Positions 2,665-8,377 of a stretch of 10,835 bases of DNA are shown one piece after another (position 1 is the stretch's first letter; every line of letters starts with the position of its first letter). The DNA lies in contig CATKZA010000021.1 in NCBI GenBank assembly GCA_949841235.1, forward strand, positions 1-10,835. The letters are read 5' to 3'. Source of the stretch: an uncultured Clostridiaceae bacterium (GTDB taxonomy: Bacteria > Bacillota > Clostridia > Lachnospirales > Lachnospiraceae). A program made the translations under genes and the position numbers. The notes below the pieces were generated by a model, which had not been told where the DNA came from, did no database searches, and worked only from the letters and a program-made list of their open reading frames with translations.

Positions 2665-2706
2665 AACATCAATGCTGACAAAAACTTTCATTAGGAGGAG
2701 TATGTG

Positions 2707-4002
2707 ATGAAATATGCAGCCCGAGTTTCAGAAATGATCAATGCCTTTTCGCCGGCGCCATTGCAGAGGGAGCAGATGGAGGAATTTTACTGCAAGGATA
2801 CGATGGAGTTTCGTACCAGCGATAAGTACGACTCTCCCATAGAGGATATCTATGATGCCTGTCGGGAGAACCAGGAGTGCATGGCCTTTCTGCTGCTGGG
2901 ACACCGGGGGTGCGGGAAAAGCACGGAACTGAACAGGATGTCCGAGAGGCTGGCTGACGAAGGCTATCATGTAAAGATTATCAAATGCACCAAGGACTTG
3001 GATTTGGTCAACATGGTGCATTCAGATCTCTTTATTCTGATGGGGGAGGCTCTGCTGCAAATGGCTGAGGAATCGGGGTGCAATCTGAGTCAGGATATGA
3101 TAGGGAGAATTGAGAATTTCTGGTGCGAGGGCACAGAAACCATGGTATCCCAAGAGGTGGAAGCCGCTTCCTTGGAAGAGGGCGCATCTGTGGGTACAGG
3201 AATTTTTGCAAATATTTTTAGCGTCTTTGCAAAGATTAAGATGGATTTAAAATACAATGAAGAGTCTAGAAAAGAATATCGGAAAAGAATCCGCATTCGC
3301 TCCAGCGAATGGATAGAGATCTTGGCGGGCATTTCAGAAAAGATTGCCGGGCATAATGATGGAAAGCGTCCCATCATTATTTTCGAGGATTTGGATAAAT
3401 TGAATCCCGAGGATGCTTGGAAGGTATTTTATAATTATGAGGCAATCCTTTCAGGAATGAACTTTCCGGTCATCTATACTTTTCCCATCAGCCTCTCCTA
3501 TGATGTCAAGTTTTCTGCCATGGAGAGCTATTTCGTGACAAAGACTCTTCCCATGATTAAGATCCAGACCATGGAGGGGGAGGATTTTCAGGATGGCATT
3601 GACGTGATAGAAGAGATTGTGGCAAAGCGCACTGAGTTGGAACTATTTGGAGAGGGCGTGTTAAAGAAACTGATTCAGAGTACGGGAGGCTCCCTGCGGG
3701 ATTTATTCATGGCGATTAATGCATCGGCAAAGAGAGCGGTGCGCAGGGACAGCCGGACGGTTTCCATGGAGGATGCCGGGCGTGCGCTGGAGGAGTTAAA
3801 GACCTCCCTGACCCGGCGGATTGAGAAAAAGGACTATCAATTCTTAGCAAATATTTACCGGGGCAATAAAGAGCAGATAGAGGATAAGGAGATGCTTCTA
3901 AATATGCTTCAGGCATCGGTGGTTTTGGAATATAATGGCAAGCGGTGGCACAATGTCCACCCGCTGGTAATAGATTTTTTGAAAGGGCAGGGATTGGATT
4001 AG
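2707..4002 (+). CDS. P-loop/AAA+ ATPase of a two-gene ATPase-TPR system
   Basis: 431-residue cytoplasmic NTPase. ATG 2707 is chosen (8 bases after AGGAGG); GTG 2704 in the same frame is also possible. Walker A is GHRGCGKST (65-73), preceded by hydrophobic FLLL. Walker B is IIIFEDLDK (223-231) with acidic catalytic residues. A sensor-1-like strand follows (IYTFPISLSYD), then a sensor-2-like GGSLRDLF, then a C-terminal region that looks like a winged helix ending in VHPLVIDFLKG. The order resembles Orc1/Cdc6-like AAA+ and the ATPase core of STAND proteins. There is no membrane segment or visible nuclease motif. The next gene begins one base after the stop, so the products likely act together: the ATPase as switch, the TPR protein as sensor or adaptor. 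The substrate is unknown. Confidence 0.85.
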   Translation: MKYAARVSEMINAFSPAPLQREQMEEFYCKDTMEFRTSDKYDSPIEDIYDACRENQECMAFLLLGHRGCGKSTELNRMSERLADEGYHVKIIKCTKDLDLVNMVHSDLFILMGEALLQMAEESGCNLSQDMIGRIENFWCEGTETMVSQEVEAASLEEGASVGTGIFANIFSVFAKIKMDLKYNEESRKEYRKRIRIRSSEWIEILAGISEKIAGHNDGKRPIIIFEDLDKLNPEDAWKVFYNYEAILSGMNFPVIYTFPISLSYDVKFSAMESYFVTKTLPMIKIQTMEGEDFQDGIDVIEEIVAKRTELELFGEGVLKKLIQSTGGSLRDLFMAINASAKRAVRRDSRTVSMEDAGRALEELKTSLTRRIEKKDYQFLANIYRGNKEQIEDKEMLLNMLQASVVLEYNGKRWHNVHPLVIDFLKGQGLD

Positions 4003-4003
4003 G

Positions 4004-5518
4004 ATGGCAGAAAGCAATCAGGAAGGGTATCGTTCATTGGGCTGGATTATCAATGAATCGGAGCAGGGGATCTATCTGGTGGTGGCCGACGAGGACATGC
4101 AGCAGGAAATCGCCAGAATATATGGCCGGGGCATGGTGGAAGTATACGACTGCCGCCAGCATCCCGGAAACTACTCCTTTCAGGAATTGCAAGCATGGGT
4201 CGCCGGTTTTCCGGAGGTCCAGGCATTTCTCATTGCCAATTTTCACTTGGCATTGCAGGAAGAAGAGGGATTGCGCCGCCTGAACTTTAGCAGGGATATG
4301 CTGGAGGGACTGGGGAAGAACCTGATATTCCTGACTACGCCCTATGGGGATGAGAGGCTGGCCACCGGGGCCTATGATTTCTATTCATTTATCAAGTTGC
4401 GGATTGCCTTTCAAGGCTATGAGGAAGAGGGGGAGGAGGAGCATGAGACACTGCCTTCCGAGAAGAATGAGATAGAGATGGGCGAGAGGGAGAATTTGCG
4501 TGAAGTGATGAATAAAGCCAATGCATTAGTGGAACAGGCTTGGCATGCGCAAGAGTGGGCGGAATATGTTGAGAGCAGACGACTGCTGTTGCAGGCGAGG
4601 GAAATTAAGGAAAAACTGCTGGATGAGGGGCATGTGGAACTGGCAGAGATTGACCACGATTTGGCATTCTTATGTGAGAAGCAGGGAAAGTATGGGGAAG
4701 CGGAAGCCTTGTATCAAAAAAGTTTGAGGATAACAGAGAAAGTATTGGGAGAGGAGCATCCAAATACGGCAACCGGTTATAGCAATCTGGCATTGGTGTA
4801 TGAGAAACAGGCAAGGTACAGGGAAGCGGAAATCATGCAGCAAAAAAGTTTGGAGATTAGAAGGAAAATATTGGGAGAAGAGCATTTAGATACTGCCAAC
4901 AGTTATAATAATTTGGCATACATATATGAGAAACAGGGGAAGTACAGGACAGCGGAGACCCTGTATCAAAAAAGTAAAGAGATTAGGGAGAGGGTATTTG
5001 GAGAAGAGCATCCAGATACGGCGACAAGCTATAAAAATCTGGCAGGAGTGTATGAGAGTCAGGGAAACTACAGGAAGGCGGAAGTGCTGTATGAAAAAAG
5101 CTTGGAGATAAAGGAGGAATTATTAGGGGAAGAGCATCCAGATACAGCGAGAGGTTATAATAATCTGGCAGGAATATATAAACTTCAGGGAAAATATGTG
5201 GAAGCGGAAGCGCTACATGAAAAAAGTTTGGAGATAAAGGAGAAATTATTAGGAGAGGAGCATCCAGATACGGCGATTGGTTATAATAATCTGGCAGGAG
5301 TATATGGGAGGCAGGGAAAGCATGAAAAGGCGGTGACTTATTATCTCAAGGCATATGTAATCTCGCTTCGCATGCTTGGGCGGAATCATCCGGATACACA
5401 GATGGTTTATGATAACATTGAGCAGGCTTACACGGATTGGAATCCGGCAGGGGATTTCCCGCAGTGGCTGGAGGATCAGGTGGGAGAACCGGAGGATTCC
5501 CCTGTCGGGGATGATTGA
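4004..5518 (+). CDS. TPR-repeat protein with an uncharacterised N-terminal domain, partner of the upstream ATPase
   Basis: 504 residues, no signal peptide or membrane segment. Residues 1-138 form a compact alpha/beta-looking domain with LNFSRD (93-98) and a FLTTPYGDERL...DFYSF stretch (109-129). This recalls a region I have seen in STAND/TPR proteins of other bacteria (N-R-x-x-L, then a P-x-x-x-x-L...DF-x-S pattern), but I cannot name it. An acidic linker (about 139-165) and a helical lead-in precede six tandem 42-residue repeats (212-463) of the kinesin-light-chain/TPR_12 type, with signature EEHPDTA..YNNLA.VYE.QGKY..AE.LY. A half repeat and an acidic tail follow. The start codon lies 1 base after the ATPase stop with only a weak ribosome binding site, suggesting translational coupling. 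The TPR superhelix likely binds a protein ligand. Confidence 0.85.
   Translation: MAESNQEGYRSLGWIINESEQGIYLVVADEDMQQEIARIYGRGMVEVYDCRQHPGNYSFQELQAWVAGFPEVQAFLIANFHLALQEEEGLRRLNFSRDMLEGLGKNLIFLTTPYGDERLATGAYDFYSFIKLRIAFQGYEEEGEEEHETLPSEKNEIEMGERENLREVMNKANALVEQAWHAQEWAEYVESRRLLLQAREIKEKLLDEGHVELAEIDHDLAFLCEKQGKYGEAEALYQKSLRITEKVLGEEHPNTATGYSNLALVYEKQARYREAEIMQQKSLEIRRKILGEEHLDTANSYNNLAYIYEKQGKYRTAETLYQKSKEIRERVFGEEHPDTATSYKNLAGVYESQGNYRKAEVLYEKSLEIKEELLGEEHPDTARGYNNLAGIYKLQGKYVEAEALHEKSLEIKEKLLGEEHPDTAIGYNNLAGVYGRQGKHEKAVTYYLKAYVISLRMLGRNHPDTQMVYDNIEQAYTDWNPAGDFPQWLEDQVGEPEDSPVGDD
4637..5392 (+). repeat. Six tandem 126-bp coding repeats (TPR units)
   Basis: Each unit encodes 42 residues. The last inner units are very similar at the DNA level: GAGCATCCAGATAC recurs at 126-base intervals around 5010, 5136 and 5262, and the stretches about 5097-5180 and 5223-5306 differ at only a few positions, mostly third bases. 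Near-identical neighbouring units suggest recent duplication or ongoing recombination that can change the repeat number. Confidence 0.85.
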
Positions 5519-5523
5519 TTGTG

Positions 5524-5565
5524 GTGAAAAGTAACATGGTTATATGGCTCTCTGTTACTATTCAC
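5524..5565. repeat. Inverted pair of the foldback-element end motif
   Basis: GTGAAAAGTAAC (5524-5535) is the reverse complement of the element end GTTACTATTCAC (5554-5565) with one mismatch, across 18 bases. It lies just after the TPR gene stop and outside the predicted element. It may be an older solo end, or part of a preferred target. Confidence 0.6.
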
Positions 5566-6151
5566 AGTCGATGTGAATAGATAATAACTTATTATCCATC
5601 AATAGTTTATGCTTTTGCAGACCATTTTCAATGTTTTGAAGAGTTTTTTGCTGAAGTCTGCGAAAGCATCCAAAAAGAAAACTGGACGCACCTTGCAATA
5701 TTACGACTTTCGGAGGGAACTATATGCTTTGCGGTTTCGATGCATGATTTATGTGCCTCTCCGATAACTCGCATCATGCAACCGATTTCATGTATTTTCC
5801 GACAGAGGCACTCGCGAATCGCCGACACTTACGAGATGTTTTTTATCTCGTTATGTGTCGTGGCGTTATGAGCGGTAGCGAAAGCGTGCCTCTTAGGAAA
5901 ATACTGAAACGGTGCATGCTGTTCAGACAATGCTGCGAGGCACATATCCATCGAAACCCTGCAAAGCAAAGTTCCCTTGCGAAAGTCTACATTGTCTAGC
6001 GGTGCGTCCAGTTTTCCTTTTCGGATGCGGTGCAAAATATTGTAGCAAAAAACTTTTTACAATTTTGAATGGTCTGCAAAAATCAAAGGTTCAAAGGATA
6101 ATAAGTTATTATCTGTTTTTCACGCTCGACCGTGAATAGTAACGGCTCTCT
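5546..6151. repeat. 8-bp direct repeats flanking the foldback element (target site duplication)
   Basis: GGCTCTCT occurs at 5546-5553 and 6144-6151, directly abutting the two terminal inverted repeats. An exact 8-bp repeat at both borders is what insertion by a transposase making 8-bp staggered cuts leaves. Confidence 0.7.
5554..6143. mobile_element. 590-bp foldback MITE-like element (giant imperfect palindrome)
   Basis: The ends are perfect 12-bp inverted repeats, GTTACTATTCAC (5554-5565) and GTGAATAGTAAC (6132-6143). The two arms match along almost their whole length in blocks: GATAATAACTTATTATCC, TTTTGCAGACCATT, AGTTTTTTGCT, GAAAACTGGACGCACC, AGGGAACT, GGTTTCGATG, ATGTGCCTC, TATTTTCC. The centre is a hairpin: CGACAC (5823-5828) pairs with GTGTCG (5855-5860) and CGAGAT (5832-5837) with ATCTCG (5845-5850), around GTTTTTT. 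No reading frame encodes a transposase; the short frames inside are mirror images of each other. It would be a non-autonomous element mobilised in trans. Alternatively it is a long structured RNA gene with symmetric arms. The 8-bp flanking duplication favours a mobile element. Confidence 0.8.
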
Positions 6152-6172
6152 GAATTCCCCGGCAGAATACGG

Positions 6173-6201
6173 TTGACATTCTGGAGAAATCCCGCTATAA
6201 T
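6173..6201 (+). promoter_or_regulatory. Consensus sigma-A promoter of aspS
   Basis: TTGACA (6173-6178), 17 bases, TATAAT (6196-6201): a perfect consensus match with ideal spacing. Transcription should start near 6208. The foldback element ends 29 bases upstream of the -35. Confidence 0.95.
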
Positions 6202-6207
6202 CTATGC

Positions 6208-6583
6208 TTATATGGCGATGACGGAGAGAAGTAGCATGCATTATCGTTTCCAGAGAGCGGGGAATGGTGCGAGCCTCGCAAAGTGAATGGATGTGAATAA
6301 CACTCTAAGACGCTGGCTTTTTAAGTCGGGCGTTCAGCCGCAATCTGAAAGGGAGATGTTCTCGTTGCCTTTTTTGGTGGTGAGGAAAGGATTTCTGCAT
6401 GATTAGCAGGATTGGCATTTTCCCAGTAGGTGCGCCGCAGGCTCTGCGTTATGGAGCGAGCTGCTGCCGGGGATGGCAACAGCGAGTTGAGTGACTGAGT
6501 ACAGTAATTCGGGTGGTACCGCGGACTTATGATACAGAGAAGTTCGTCCTGAACAAAAGAGTTTAGGGCGAACTTCTCTTTTT
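6208..6583 (+). ncRNA. T-box riboswitch leader of aspS, predicted Asn (AAC) specifier
   Basis: T-box leaders sense uncharged tRNA by codon-anticodon pairing and by binding its 3' end, then switch a terminator to an antiterminator. The T-box sequence GGGTGGTACCGCGG is at 6511-6524. Stem I is clear. The lower helix AGAG (6225-6228) pairs with CTCT (6303-6306). The loop-E side AAGTAG is at 6229-6234. The upper helix CATGCATT (6235-6242) pairs with AATGGATG (6286-6293) with one mismatch. The distal GAGAGC...GGTGCGAGCC is at 6253-6275. The 3' side of the specifier loop is GAATAACA (6295-6302), which aligns with GAAAGGCA of the B. subtilis glyQS leader, making the specifier AAC (6299-6301), an Asn codon. 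No GAC lies in the loop. The tRNA-end-pairing base of TGGT is T, compatible with a G73 discriminator through wobble. Confidence 0.93.
6536..6583 (+). terminator. T-box attenuator terminator
   Basis: AGAGAAGTTCGTCCT (6536-6550) pairs with AGGGCGAACTTCTCT (6565-6579): 15 pairs, one G-U, with a 14-base loop, followed by TTTTT (6579-6583). It is mutually exclusive with the antiterminator formed around the T-box sequence and blocks aspS transcription when charged tRNA is abundant. Confidence 0.93.
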
Positions 6584-6619
6584 CTAATGAGGGTTTGTCC
6601 GCAATAAAGGAGGAAGAGG

Positions 6620-8377
6620 ATGCAGACGAATGTAGGAAATATTTATCGTGACAGAACGATGGATCAGATTACGGAGAAGGATGTAGATCAGAACCTGAAG
6701 ATTGCCGGGTGGGTGGAAAATATCAGAGACCACGGTGGCGTATCTTTTGTGGATTTGCGTGACATGTACGGGGTAATGCAGGTGGTGATGCGGGATACCT
6801 CATTGCTGGAGGGCATTGCCAGGGAAGAGTGCATCAGCGTGGAGGGCGTGATCCAGAACAGGGACGAGGAGACTTACAATCCCAAGATTCCCACGGGAAC
6901 CATTGAACTGGAAGCACACAAGGTGGAGATTCTGGGCAAGGTATATCGCCAGCTGCCCTTCGAGATTATCACCTCCAGGGAGACTAGGGAGGATGTGCGC
7001 CTGAAGTACCGCTATCTGGATTTGCGCAATGCAAAGGTGCGGGACAATATGATTTTCCGCTCTAATGTGATTGCCTATCTCCGGGAAAAGATGACGGAGC
7101 TGGGATTTCTGGAAATCCAGACCCCGATTCTCTGCGCATCCTCCCCGGAGGGAGCTAGGGATTACATCGTGCCATCCCGCAAATTCAAGGGGAAGTTTTA
7201 TGCTCTTCCCCAGGCACCCCAGCAGTATAAGCAGCTTCTGATGGCATCCGGGTTTGACAAGTATTTCCAGATTGCTCCCTGCTTCCGGGATGAGGATGCC
7301 AGGGCGGACCGCTCCCCGGGAGAGTTTTACCAGTTAGATTTCGAGATGAGCTTTGCCACCCAGGAGGATGTATTCTGGGTGGGGGAGGAAGTGCTGTCTG
7401 CCACTTTTGAGAAGTTTGCGCCGGAGGGGGCGGAGGTGACGAAAGCACCCTATCCCGTCATCAGCTACAGGCAGGCCATGCTGGAGTTCGGCACGGATAA
7501 GCCGGATTTGAGGAATCCCCTGCGCATCGTGGATGTGACGGATTTCTTCCAGAGATGCACCTTCAAGCCTTTCCATGGCAAGACGGTGCGCGCCATCAAC
7601 GTCCATGCCAAATTGTCCAAGGGACAGCACGAGAAGTTGTTGAAGTTTGCCCAGTCCATCGGCATGGGCGGTCTGGGATATTTGGAAGTCAAGGAAGATA
7701 TGGGCTATAAGGGGCCTATTGACAAGTTCATTCCGGAGGAGATGAAGACGGAAATCAAAGAGATAGCCGGACTGGAGGTGGGAGATACCATCTTCTTTAT
7801 CGCTGACAGGGAGGAACTTGCGGCCCTCTATGCGGGGCAGATTCGGGCAGAATTGGGAGAGCGTCTGGATCTTCTGGAGAAGAACGCATTCCGCTTCTGC
7901 TATATCAATGATTTTCCCATGTACGAATATGACAGGGAGGAGAAGAAGTATATCTTTACCCACAATCCATTCTCCATGCCCCAGGGAGGCTTGGAGGCGC
8001 TGAATGGAAAGAAGCCGGAAGAAATTCTGGCATACCAGTATGATATCGTGTGCAATGGCATCGAGCTTTCTTCCGGTGCCGTGCGGAACCATGATATGGA
8101 CGTGATGGTGAAGGCGTTTGAGATTGCCGGATATACGGAGGAGGATTTGCAGCAGAAGTTCGGGGCGCTGTACAGCGCATTCCAGTTTGGCGCGCCGCCC
8201 CATGCCGGAATGGCCCCGGGCGTGGATAGGATGATTATGCTTCTGCGCAATGAGGAAAATATTCGGGAGGTCATTCCCTTCCCCATGAATGGAAATGCTC
8301 AGGATCTGATGTGCGGCGCACCGGGGGAGGTGTCCGAGACCCAGCTTCGGGAAACCCATATCAAAGTGAGGAAATAA
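6620..8377 (+). CDS. aspS: Aspartyl-tRNA synthetase, bacterial type, probably non-discriminating
   Basis: 585-residue class IIb synthetase that attaches Asp to tRNA in the cytoplasm; the length fits bacterial AspRS (about 590). AAAGGAGG (6606-6613) fixes the start. An N-terminal OB-fold anticodon domain (about 1-110) carries GWVENIRDHGGVSFVDLRD. Motif 1 lies around FLEIQTPIL, followed by SPEGARDYIVPSR. Motif 2 is FRDEDARADRSPGEFYQLD. The bacterial GAD insertion spans about 290-410, and motif 3 is PPHAGMAPGVDRM near the C-terminus. His38, in RDHGG, occupies the place of His31 of Pseudomonas aeruginosa AspRS, a residue linked to charging both tRNA-Asp and tRNA-Asn; discriminating enzymes such as E. 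coli's have Leu there. With the Asn-reading T-box this suggests production of Asp-tRNA-Asn for GatCAB amidation. It appears monocistronic. Confidence 0.96.
   Translation: MQTNVGNIYRDRTMDQITEKDVDQNLKIAGWVENIRDHGGVSFVDLRDMYGVMQVVMRDTSLLEGIAREECISVEGVIQNRDEETYNPKIPTGTIELEAHKVEILGKVYRQLPFEIITSRETREDVRLKYRYLDLRNAKVRDNMIFRSNVIAYLREKMTELGFLEIQTPILCASSPEGARDYIVPSRKFKGKFYALPQAPQQYKQLLMASGFDKYFQIAPCFRDEDARADRSPGEFYQLDFEMSFATQEDVFWVGEEVLSATFEKFAPEGAEVTKAPYPVISYRQAMLEFGTDKPDLRNPLRIVDVTDFFQRCTFKPFHGKTVRAINVHAKLSKGQHEKLLKFAQSIGMGGLGYLEVKEDMGYKGPIDKFIPEEMKTEIKEIAGLEVGDTIFFIADREELAALYAGQIRAELGERLDLLEKNAFRFCYINDFPMYEYDREEKKYIFTHNPFSMPQGGLEALNGKKPEEILAYQYDIVCNGIELSSGAVRNHDMDVMVKAFEIAGYTEEDLQQKFGALYSAFQFGAPPHAGMAPGVDRMIMLLRNEENIREVIPFPMNGNAQDLMCGAPGEVSETQLRETHIKVRK

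Follow-up and report, generated by a model that had tools for sequence, protein, structure and literature searches.

A palindromic non-autonomous transposon upstream of aspS in Lachnospiraceae, with a conserved tip domain and an inverting core

The locus and its palindromic element

The window, i.e. the whole stretch of 10,835 nucleotides that was analysed, has, at 2704–5518, an ORF for a KAP/AAA-like P-loop NTPase (weak Pfam hits) that stops directly ahead of a TPR-repeat gene, whose product carries six TPR_12 stretches. The palindromic element starts 35 bp beyond the end of the TPR gene ORF at 5518. Downstream of it are a perfect sigma-70-type promoter, TTGACA-17-TATAAT (6173–6201), and the T-box leader of aspS (6209–6554), which scores 69.2 bits where the Rfam gathering score is 93. 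There is no terminator-like site in 5500–6260. The features of the element are as follows.

5546..5553, unstranded: left copy of the target duplication GGCTCTCT, 8 bp
5554..6143, unstranded: palindromic non-autonomous element of family A, 590 bp
5554..5567, + strand: left terminal inverted repeat GTTACTATTCACAG; an IS4-family IS in genome G094 has the same ends
5580..5596, unstranded: left dyad site GATAATAACTTATTATC, location of the inversion breakpoints
5694..5986 (approximate limits), + strand: slowly evolving core, common to the CACGG-ended elements
5805..5892, + strand: tip domain with RNA-like features, 88 nt, model R1
5878..5885, + strand: mini-hairpin GC-GAAA-GC within the tip; across the wider set, 54 of 59 distinct tips have GNRA here
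6097..6113, unstranded: right dyad site GATAATAAGTTATTATC
6130..6143, − strand: right terminal inverted repeat
6144..6151, unstranded: right copy of the target duplication GGCTCTCT, 8 bp

The original prediction of a 590-bp, nearly complete palindrome with inverted ends is confirmed at 5554–6143, and the GGCTCTCT direct repeat on its two flanks is exact over 8 bp. The inverted ends are 18 nt long with 94% complementarity and start with GTTACTATTCAC. The palindrome is imperfect, as the element is 71% identical to its own reverse strand, and is centred at about 5841–5849. Both strands are predicted to fold far more stably than shuffled sequences: −286.2 kcal/mol for the + strand (shuffled mean −151.8, z −22) and −278.2 kcal/mol for the − strand (shuffled mean −143.7, z −26), with none of 20 shuffles as low in either case. 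The element had been described as lacking a transposase, and the ORF list together with a Pfam search of its four small internal ORFs, none of which has a match, contains no transposase gene. The longer outer arm (6136–6108, − strand) and the matching arm elsewhere carry a promoter-like, inward-reading TTCACG-16/17-GATAAT, and the shorter outer arm has promoter-like boxes with a spacer of 13. An inversion would exchange the strand that is read, which is only an idea; promoter-like matches of the TTCACG/GATAAT class inside the element are near background.

Copies, target duplications and end sequences

A search of the genome and its relatives, as the original prediction had proposed, finds 42 matches to the element in its own genome (G000, 2.1 Mb; an assembly 66% complete in 404 contigs). 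These amount to 21 separate places, because the palindrome matches itself on the opposite strand and some copies are split. Matches are also found in six of 28 genus genomes. Six contigs of the own genome (C29, C75, C138, C150, C251 and C305) terminate at the element or inside it. The repeat is therefore likely to interrupt the assembly, which makes the copy number an underestimate. The end motif GTTACTATTCACRG, with up to two mismatches, occurs 244 times in this genome versus 23 times for the reversed control. At one mismatch it occurs 189, 157 and 279 times in G019, G027 and G006 (controls 3, 0 and 1), and it is present exactly in 44 of 250 genomes of the bacterial family.

Eight-base-pair duplications with at most one mismatch flank 14 of 20 sampled elements (six exact, eight with one mismatch), a sample that covers a 176-bp deletion form (L143), a second family, B (L146–L148 and L150), and a 937-bp candidate (L149); the other six (L002, L004, L011, L138, L149 and L150) have no recognisable duplication. 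Among 19 small elements of 72–247 bp that have both ends, seven show an 8-bp repeat that is exact (four) or has a single mismatch. Another repeat, flanking small element L169, is 9 bp long, and a twentieth small element outside this set, L171, lacks a good far end.

The search for empty sites yielded a clean one at one of the three G019 loci queried: two genes are joined in G027 (contig C245) where G019 carries an insertion (L066/L137). At a second queried locus the element is missing in G000 and G027, along with other small length differences. The window locus itself offers no clean join since the left neighbour of aspS is different in G019 and G027. Instead of a fixed locus without empty sites, there are no element matches beside aspS among the matches in other genus genomes and there is one clean empty site. 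The proposal of a MITE family is borne out by the multiple copies, the target duplications and this site. That the element is a non-autonomous foldback (MITE-like) transposon that has transposed in the past is well supported.

Two kinds of additional hairpin-like inserts occur at fixed places in some copies (~84 nt in L011, L138, L141 and L142; ~25 nt in L004, L011 and L137). Family B is a second family of giant hairpins, 664–688 bp long (L146, L147 and L148 in G006; L150 in G005), which has GTTAC ends as in family A and arms without a blastn match to family A beyond the ends. A scan of genome contigs with the core pattern matched in two organisms only (the own genome possibly being outside the scan), and viral contigs gave no match.

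A full-length transposon with the same ends, which the original prediction had suggested looking for, is found in a different genus of the same family. It is a 1748-bp IS4-family IS in G094 with GTTACTATTCACAG at both ends, flanks AAAATTCG/AAAATTTG that form an 8-bp repeat with one mismatch, and a transposase of 461 aa (PF01609; NF033592 at 168 bits, cut-off 115). Seven of 28 genus genomes match this IS, closely only in G014 (67%), where paired ends are absent from the 3.2-kb contig. The own genome, which is 66% complete, yielded no transposase with the element's ends. IS4_1 hits in G019, G005 and G006 were considered as the autonomous partner and rejected, the fetched loci being without paired GTTACTATTCAC ends; for G019 this concerns all eight matches. 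Two composite or autonomous candidates were also discarded: L173 (G207), among whose ORFs no transposase was recognised by eye, and L149 (G006), which has no duplication. The identity of the ends, rather than co-occurrence, suggests that an IS4-family DDE transposase mobilises the element in trans, recognising GTTACTATTCAC ends and duplicating 8 bp of target.

The core is not tied to one kind of end. In G005, it is carried by 17 fetched elements of 672–685 bp (one of 759). These have CACGGAAATCAATTTT ends, and further in a decayed GTTAC-type end remains legible. G019 has two CACGG-ended copies alongside GTTAC-ended ones, with different outer sequence, so that one core stands on two end systems within one genome. 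Exact repeats of at least 9 bp flank 14 of the 19 CACGG-ended elements of G005 and G019 and are absent in five (L217, L220, L225, L231 and L234). The CACGG motif (at most one mismatch) occurs 151 times in G005, and its control does not occur. No intact partner transposase was found for CACGG ends; a C-terminal IS1634-type fragment adjoins the CACGG end of L262 in G019 (86.5 bits, cut-off 100). Further end systems, TAGGTAATTGCGAAAC-like and TAGCYATGAGCAAAAC-like with direct repeats of 8–10 bp, accompany six of 29 tips scanned in the wider family.

The tip domain

The core evolves more slowly than its surroundings. Between G000 and G005, core identity is 0.75–0.84, compared to 0.47–0.63 in the outer parts and 0.511 at third positions of aspS; between G000 and G019, the corresponding values are 87–92%, 74–77% and 76%, the limits of core and outer parts having been picked after viewing the alignment. 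A coding origin of the core was rejected: it has no Pfam match and only six homologous predicted proteins, one of them apparently the own genome's, and in G005 copies the reading frame is disrupted by length changes of a single base. Tip model R1 also matches family B tips in G006 (L146, E 1.6e-7) and G005 (L150, E 6.4e-8) and a related G006 element (L052, E 1.4e-13), with no match at E <=1 in L147 and L148.

Across the bacterial family, tip matches occur in 67 of 299 genomes, which represent 66 of 298 genera (covariance model, E <=0.001, E-values roughly calibrated); copy numbers per genome are lower bounds, as scoring was limited to 14 candidates per genome. Of a set of 31 tips, 30 were located, and 20 entered alignment A2. 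Standard pairs fill 95.6% of the pair cells of 59 distinct tips, 24 of 30 pairs are changed on both sides and there are 320 double-change cells versus 83 shuffled; alignment A3 was fitted to the model's structure, so its pair counts lean that way. The internal loop TT/TAT is retained in 52 of 59. The tetraloop takes the GNRA form in 54 tips and the ANRA form in five, with a purine at position 3 in all 59 and A, C or G at position 2. G-T pairs outnumber A-C pairs by 202 to 10, an excess that comes largely from a few positional wobbles and is partly favoured by a covariance model tolerant of G-U; the two best helices alone give 16 versus 6 (p 0.05). A strand-specific conserved fold is thus limited to the tip and does not extend to the whole hairpin.

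The tip has no recurrent neighbour: no gene family recurs beside it in 19 wider-family loci. Nine tips in these loci lie between co-directional ORFs, three in sense and six in antisense, so a dependence on host transcription is not apparent. Rfam has no match overlapping the element or the tips (the window at gathering, 5400–6700 at E <=1, four further loci at gathering and 29 wider-family loci at E <=0.5), and one wider-family tip had no match among plasmid and phage records. Tip elements also form tandem arrays, with a spacing of 187 bp for three in G137 (L352) and of 141 bp for two in G218 (L346).

Stems were compared for 58 of 71 matches, after removal of duplicates from the same place and of a few second matches. 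In six genomes (G214, G215, G069, G178, G064 and G054) the copies share stems, and G087 is mixed. In G218 (four copies), G133 (two) and G052 (three), the tip is conserved but each copy has its own, unrelated stem, and stems within a genome are as dissimilar as those of different genomes. The stems in G218 (L344–L347), G133 (L351) and G052 (L305, L353) are well paired despite this unlikeness. An origin of the wider-family stems from local flanks was set aside as unnecessary in the six stem-sharing genomes, and may apply in G218, G133 and G052.

The tip is most likely an RNA that acts for the element. The conserved unit would then be an 88-nt single-strand structure that serves the element and not a neighbouring gene and that has travelled with three or more kinds of transposon ends. 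Its candidate jobs could be to bind a host or transposase factor, or to shield the palindrome or its transcript. GNRA is an RNA motif; GNNA-type loops and G-T pairs are, however, stable in single-stranded DNA also, which leaves the RNA nature of the tip probable rather than certain. The strand-specific features would equally suit a single-stranded DNA hairpin bound by a recombinase or replication protein, as would the position of the tip at the apex of a DNA palindrome whose flips (see below) imply extruded or recombining arms. But the invariant purine at position 3 of the tetraloop combined with a varied position 2 fits GNRA, and no partner recombinase is known, which leaves the DNA hairpin a doubtful alternative, though one to be kept in mind.

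Arms, core inversion and interpretation

The arms of the hairpin behave differently from the tip. A structure that holds on both strands was predicted solely from 14 elements of family A, and 151 of its pairs, all unambiguous, were compared with the G005 elements. There, 108 pairs are unchanged and 26 are doubly changed and still Watson–Crick, where 2000 permutations gave 4.8 on average and 11 at most. Thirteen pairs are changed on a single side (three to G-T, two to A-C and eight to mismatches), and four are doubly changed and unpaired. On pairs predicted on both strands, G-T is not in excess of A-C (55 versus 46, p 0.43). The ratio depends on the structure used, being 147:54 for the + strand prediction and 68:122 for the − strand one, and it is 58:42 in 57 distinct wider-family stems. 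The arms therefore co-evolve without strand bias, and the notion of a structured RNA that also transposes, part of the original prediction, stands for the 88-nt tip and fails for the hairpin as a whole.

Pairing of this kind might be maintained by selection for a cruciform or a long double-stranded RNA. Alignment A1, which holds 15 of 19 aligned elements, agrees with this in that 96.8% of the cells of its 182 pairs are paired, and 65 pairs are changed on both sides versus 43.5 shuffled (253 cells versus 82); further pair types number 112 versus 122 shuffled, below all 500 shuffles. But selection on pairing would have to be reconciled with the balance of G-T and A-C, and with the few one-sided wobbles between family A and G005 (five against 26 double changes). 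Among 15 close copies of family A', moreover, there are 18 mirrored changes on both arms versus 0.98 expected, ten of them private to one element, and five of those ten are transversions. The same copies tolerate 159 one-arm changes, and the flips described next show exchange between arms. Selection on pairing is thus an unlikely source of the complementarity. Because the mirrored changes are without strand bias, we infer that it reflects partial copying between arms, the one-arm changes indicating that copying is far from complete. The arms would remain complementary mainly by the copying of one arm onto the other, through template switching or inverted-repeat recombination.

The core has repeatedly switched its orientation with respect to the termini, and the switch takes place at a conserved dyad, GATAAY-N5-RTTATC. 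The outer arms of 15 of the 18 A' elements (L209, L231 and L232, of other outer types, were excluded) are of two types, of which, relative to the core, X is on the left in eight and Y in seven. Among well-separating alignment columns, those up to 160 track the outer type and those from 186 on track the core, column 73 doing partly both, and the switch sits over GATAACTCCCTGTTATC. In family A, pairs with opposite ends have nearly identical inner parts (L001/L002, 94%; L134/L137, 94.3%; L141/L142, 99.2%). The minimum number of flips is three on a family A tree of 11 of 14 elements (L004, L136 and L138 were left out as ambiguous) and four on the A' tree, a soft number as this tree is poorly resolved. 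An arm-to-arm identical tract of 17–29 nt overlaps the dyad in 13 of 16 elements and is the longest, or joint longest, in ten. Homologous exchange at such a tract accounts for the breakpoint as well as a dedicated recombinase does, and the arm exchange that would keep the arms alike may also be what flips the core.

MITEs are normally viewed as relics of insertion sequences. The present elements could be plain MITEs, in which palindrome and tip have no function and the tip is conserved only as young and recently spread horizontally; their anatomy is standard for MITEs, and there are many fragments and small relatives. This is nevertheless quite improbable, given a tip that occurs across 66 genera with differing stems and ends, the 24 of 30 tip pairs that are doubly changed, and a core slower than both the arms and the third positions of aspS. 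A fixed RNA gene or a gene-specific regulator (leader or terminator) of the aspS region, suggested by the place of the element between the TPR gene and the aspS promoter and T-box, is scarcely credible and, barring some special effect on aspS, refuted by the empty site and by multiple copies with flanking duplications, to which are added the lack of matches beside aspS in other genus genomes, of a recurrent neighbouring gene in the 19 wider-family loci and of a terminator-like site in 5500–6260.

The best explanation as a whole, to which we give a probability of roughly 0.75, is that these are selfish palindromic elements whose conserved tip, probably an RNA, can be mobilised by several transposases. 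A more far-reaching version, tentative when all its parts are taken jointly, would make the tip an ancient parasitic RNA module of the bacterial family that hitchhikes on unrelated DNA transposases. Its ends would come from at least three systems (GTTACTATTCAC with 8 bp, CACGGAAATCAATTTT with 9 bp and TAGGTAATTGCGAAAC-like with 8–10 bp), and it might act for the element by, for example, recruiting a shared host factor. The wholly different stems of copies in some genomes could mean that the tip inserts into or creates palindromes, and in the giant forms inversion at the dyad might also switch the strand read by an end-borne promoter.

End swapping, arm co-evolution, core inversion and the conserved tip domain go beyond the original prediction. 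A single structured tip kept in 67 of 299 sampled genomes despite changing stems and ends would point to a conserved, transposon-carried and probably RNA function, which is missing from Rfam and which the finding makes testable. The inversion and arm-copying data provide a natural system for the survival of long palindromes in bacteria.

That no named family has these ends agrees with our searches: none was found in Rfam or the literature, where end and tip words retrieved no related paper by title (most subscription papers and preprints being outside the coverage), and "undescribed" is used here in the sense of absent from Rfam and from the literature searched. TwoAYGGAY RNA (RF01731) resembles the elements in its long stem and conserved apical hairpins (PMC2864571), but it does not match the tip itself in the loci tested. 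A TwoAYGGAY RNA lies near a tip element in G064 (L308 1181–1346, − strand, the same place as L340 1–103). The G094 IS (NF033592, DDE_Tnp_1) shares the GTTACTATTCACAG ends and the 8-bp flank repeat with one mismatch; unlike the elements, it has no tip domain (no R1 match in L172), and its inner sequence has no likeness to the hairpin apparent by eye. RPE (105–146 bp), which is palindromic, and RUP (107 bp) are mobile repeats of small size too, but a tip common to different terminal repeats is not mentioned in the portion of PMC2229807 used here. Closest in plan, in the portion of PMC10969869 used here, are the bacterial MITEs QMITE2 (Coxiella) and Chunjie (Geobacter), ~190–235 bp long, with no protein, terminal inverted repeats, a target duplication, the ends of a parent IS and predicted stable stem-loop transcripts. 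Compared to these, the present elements are 590–700 bp long and palindromic from end to end, their conserved tip is common across genera and end types, and their core inverts.
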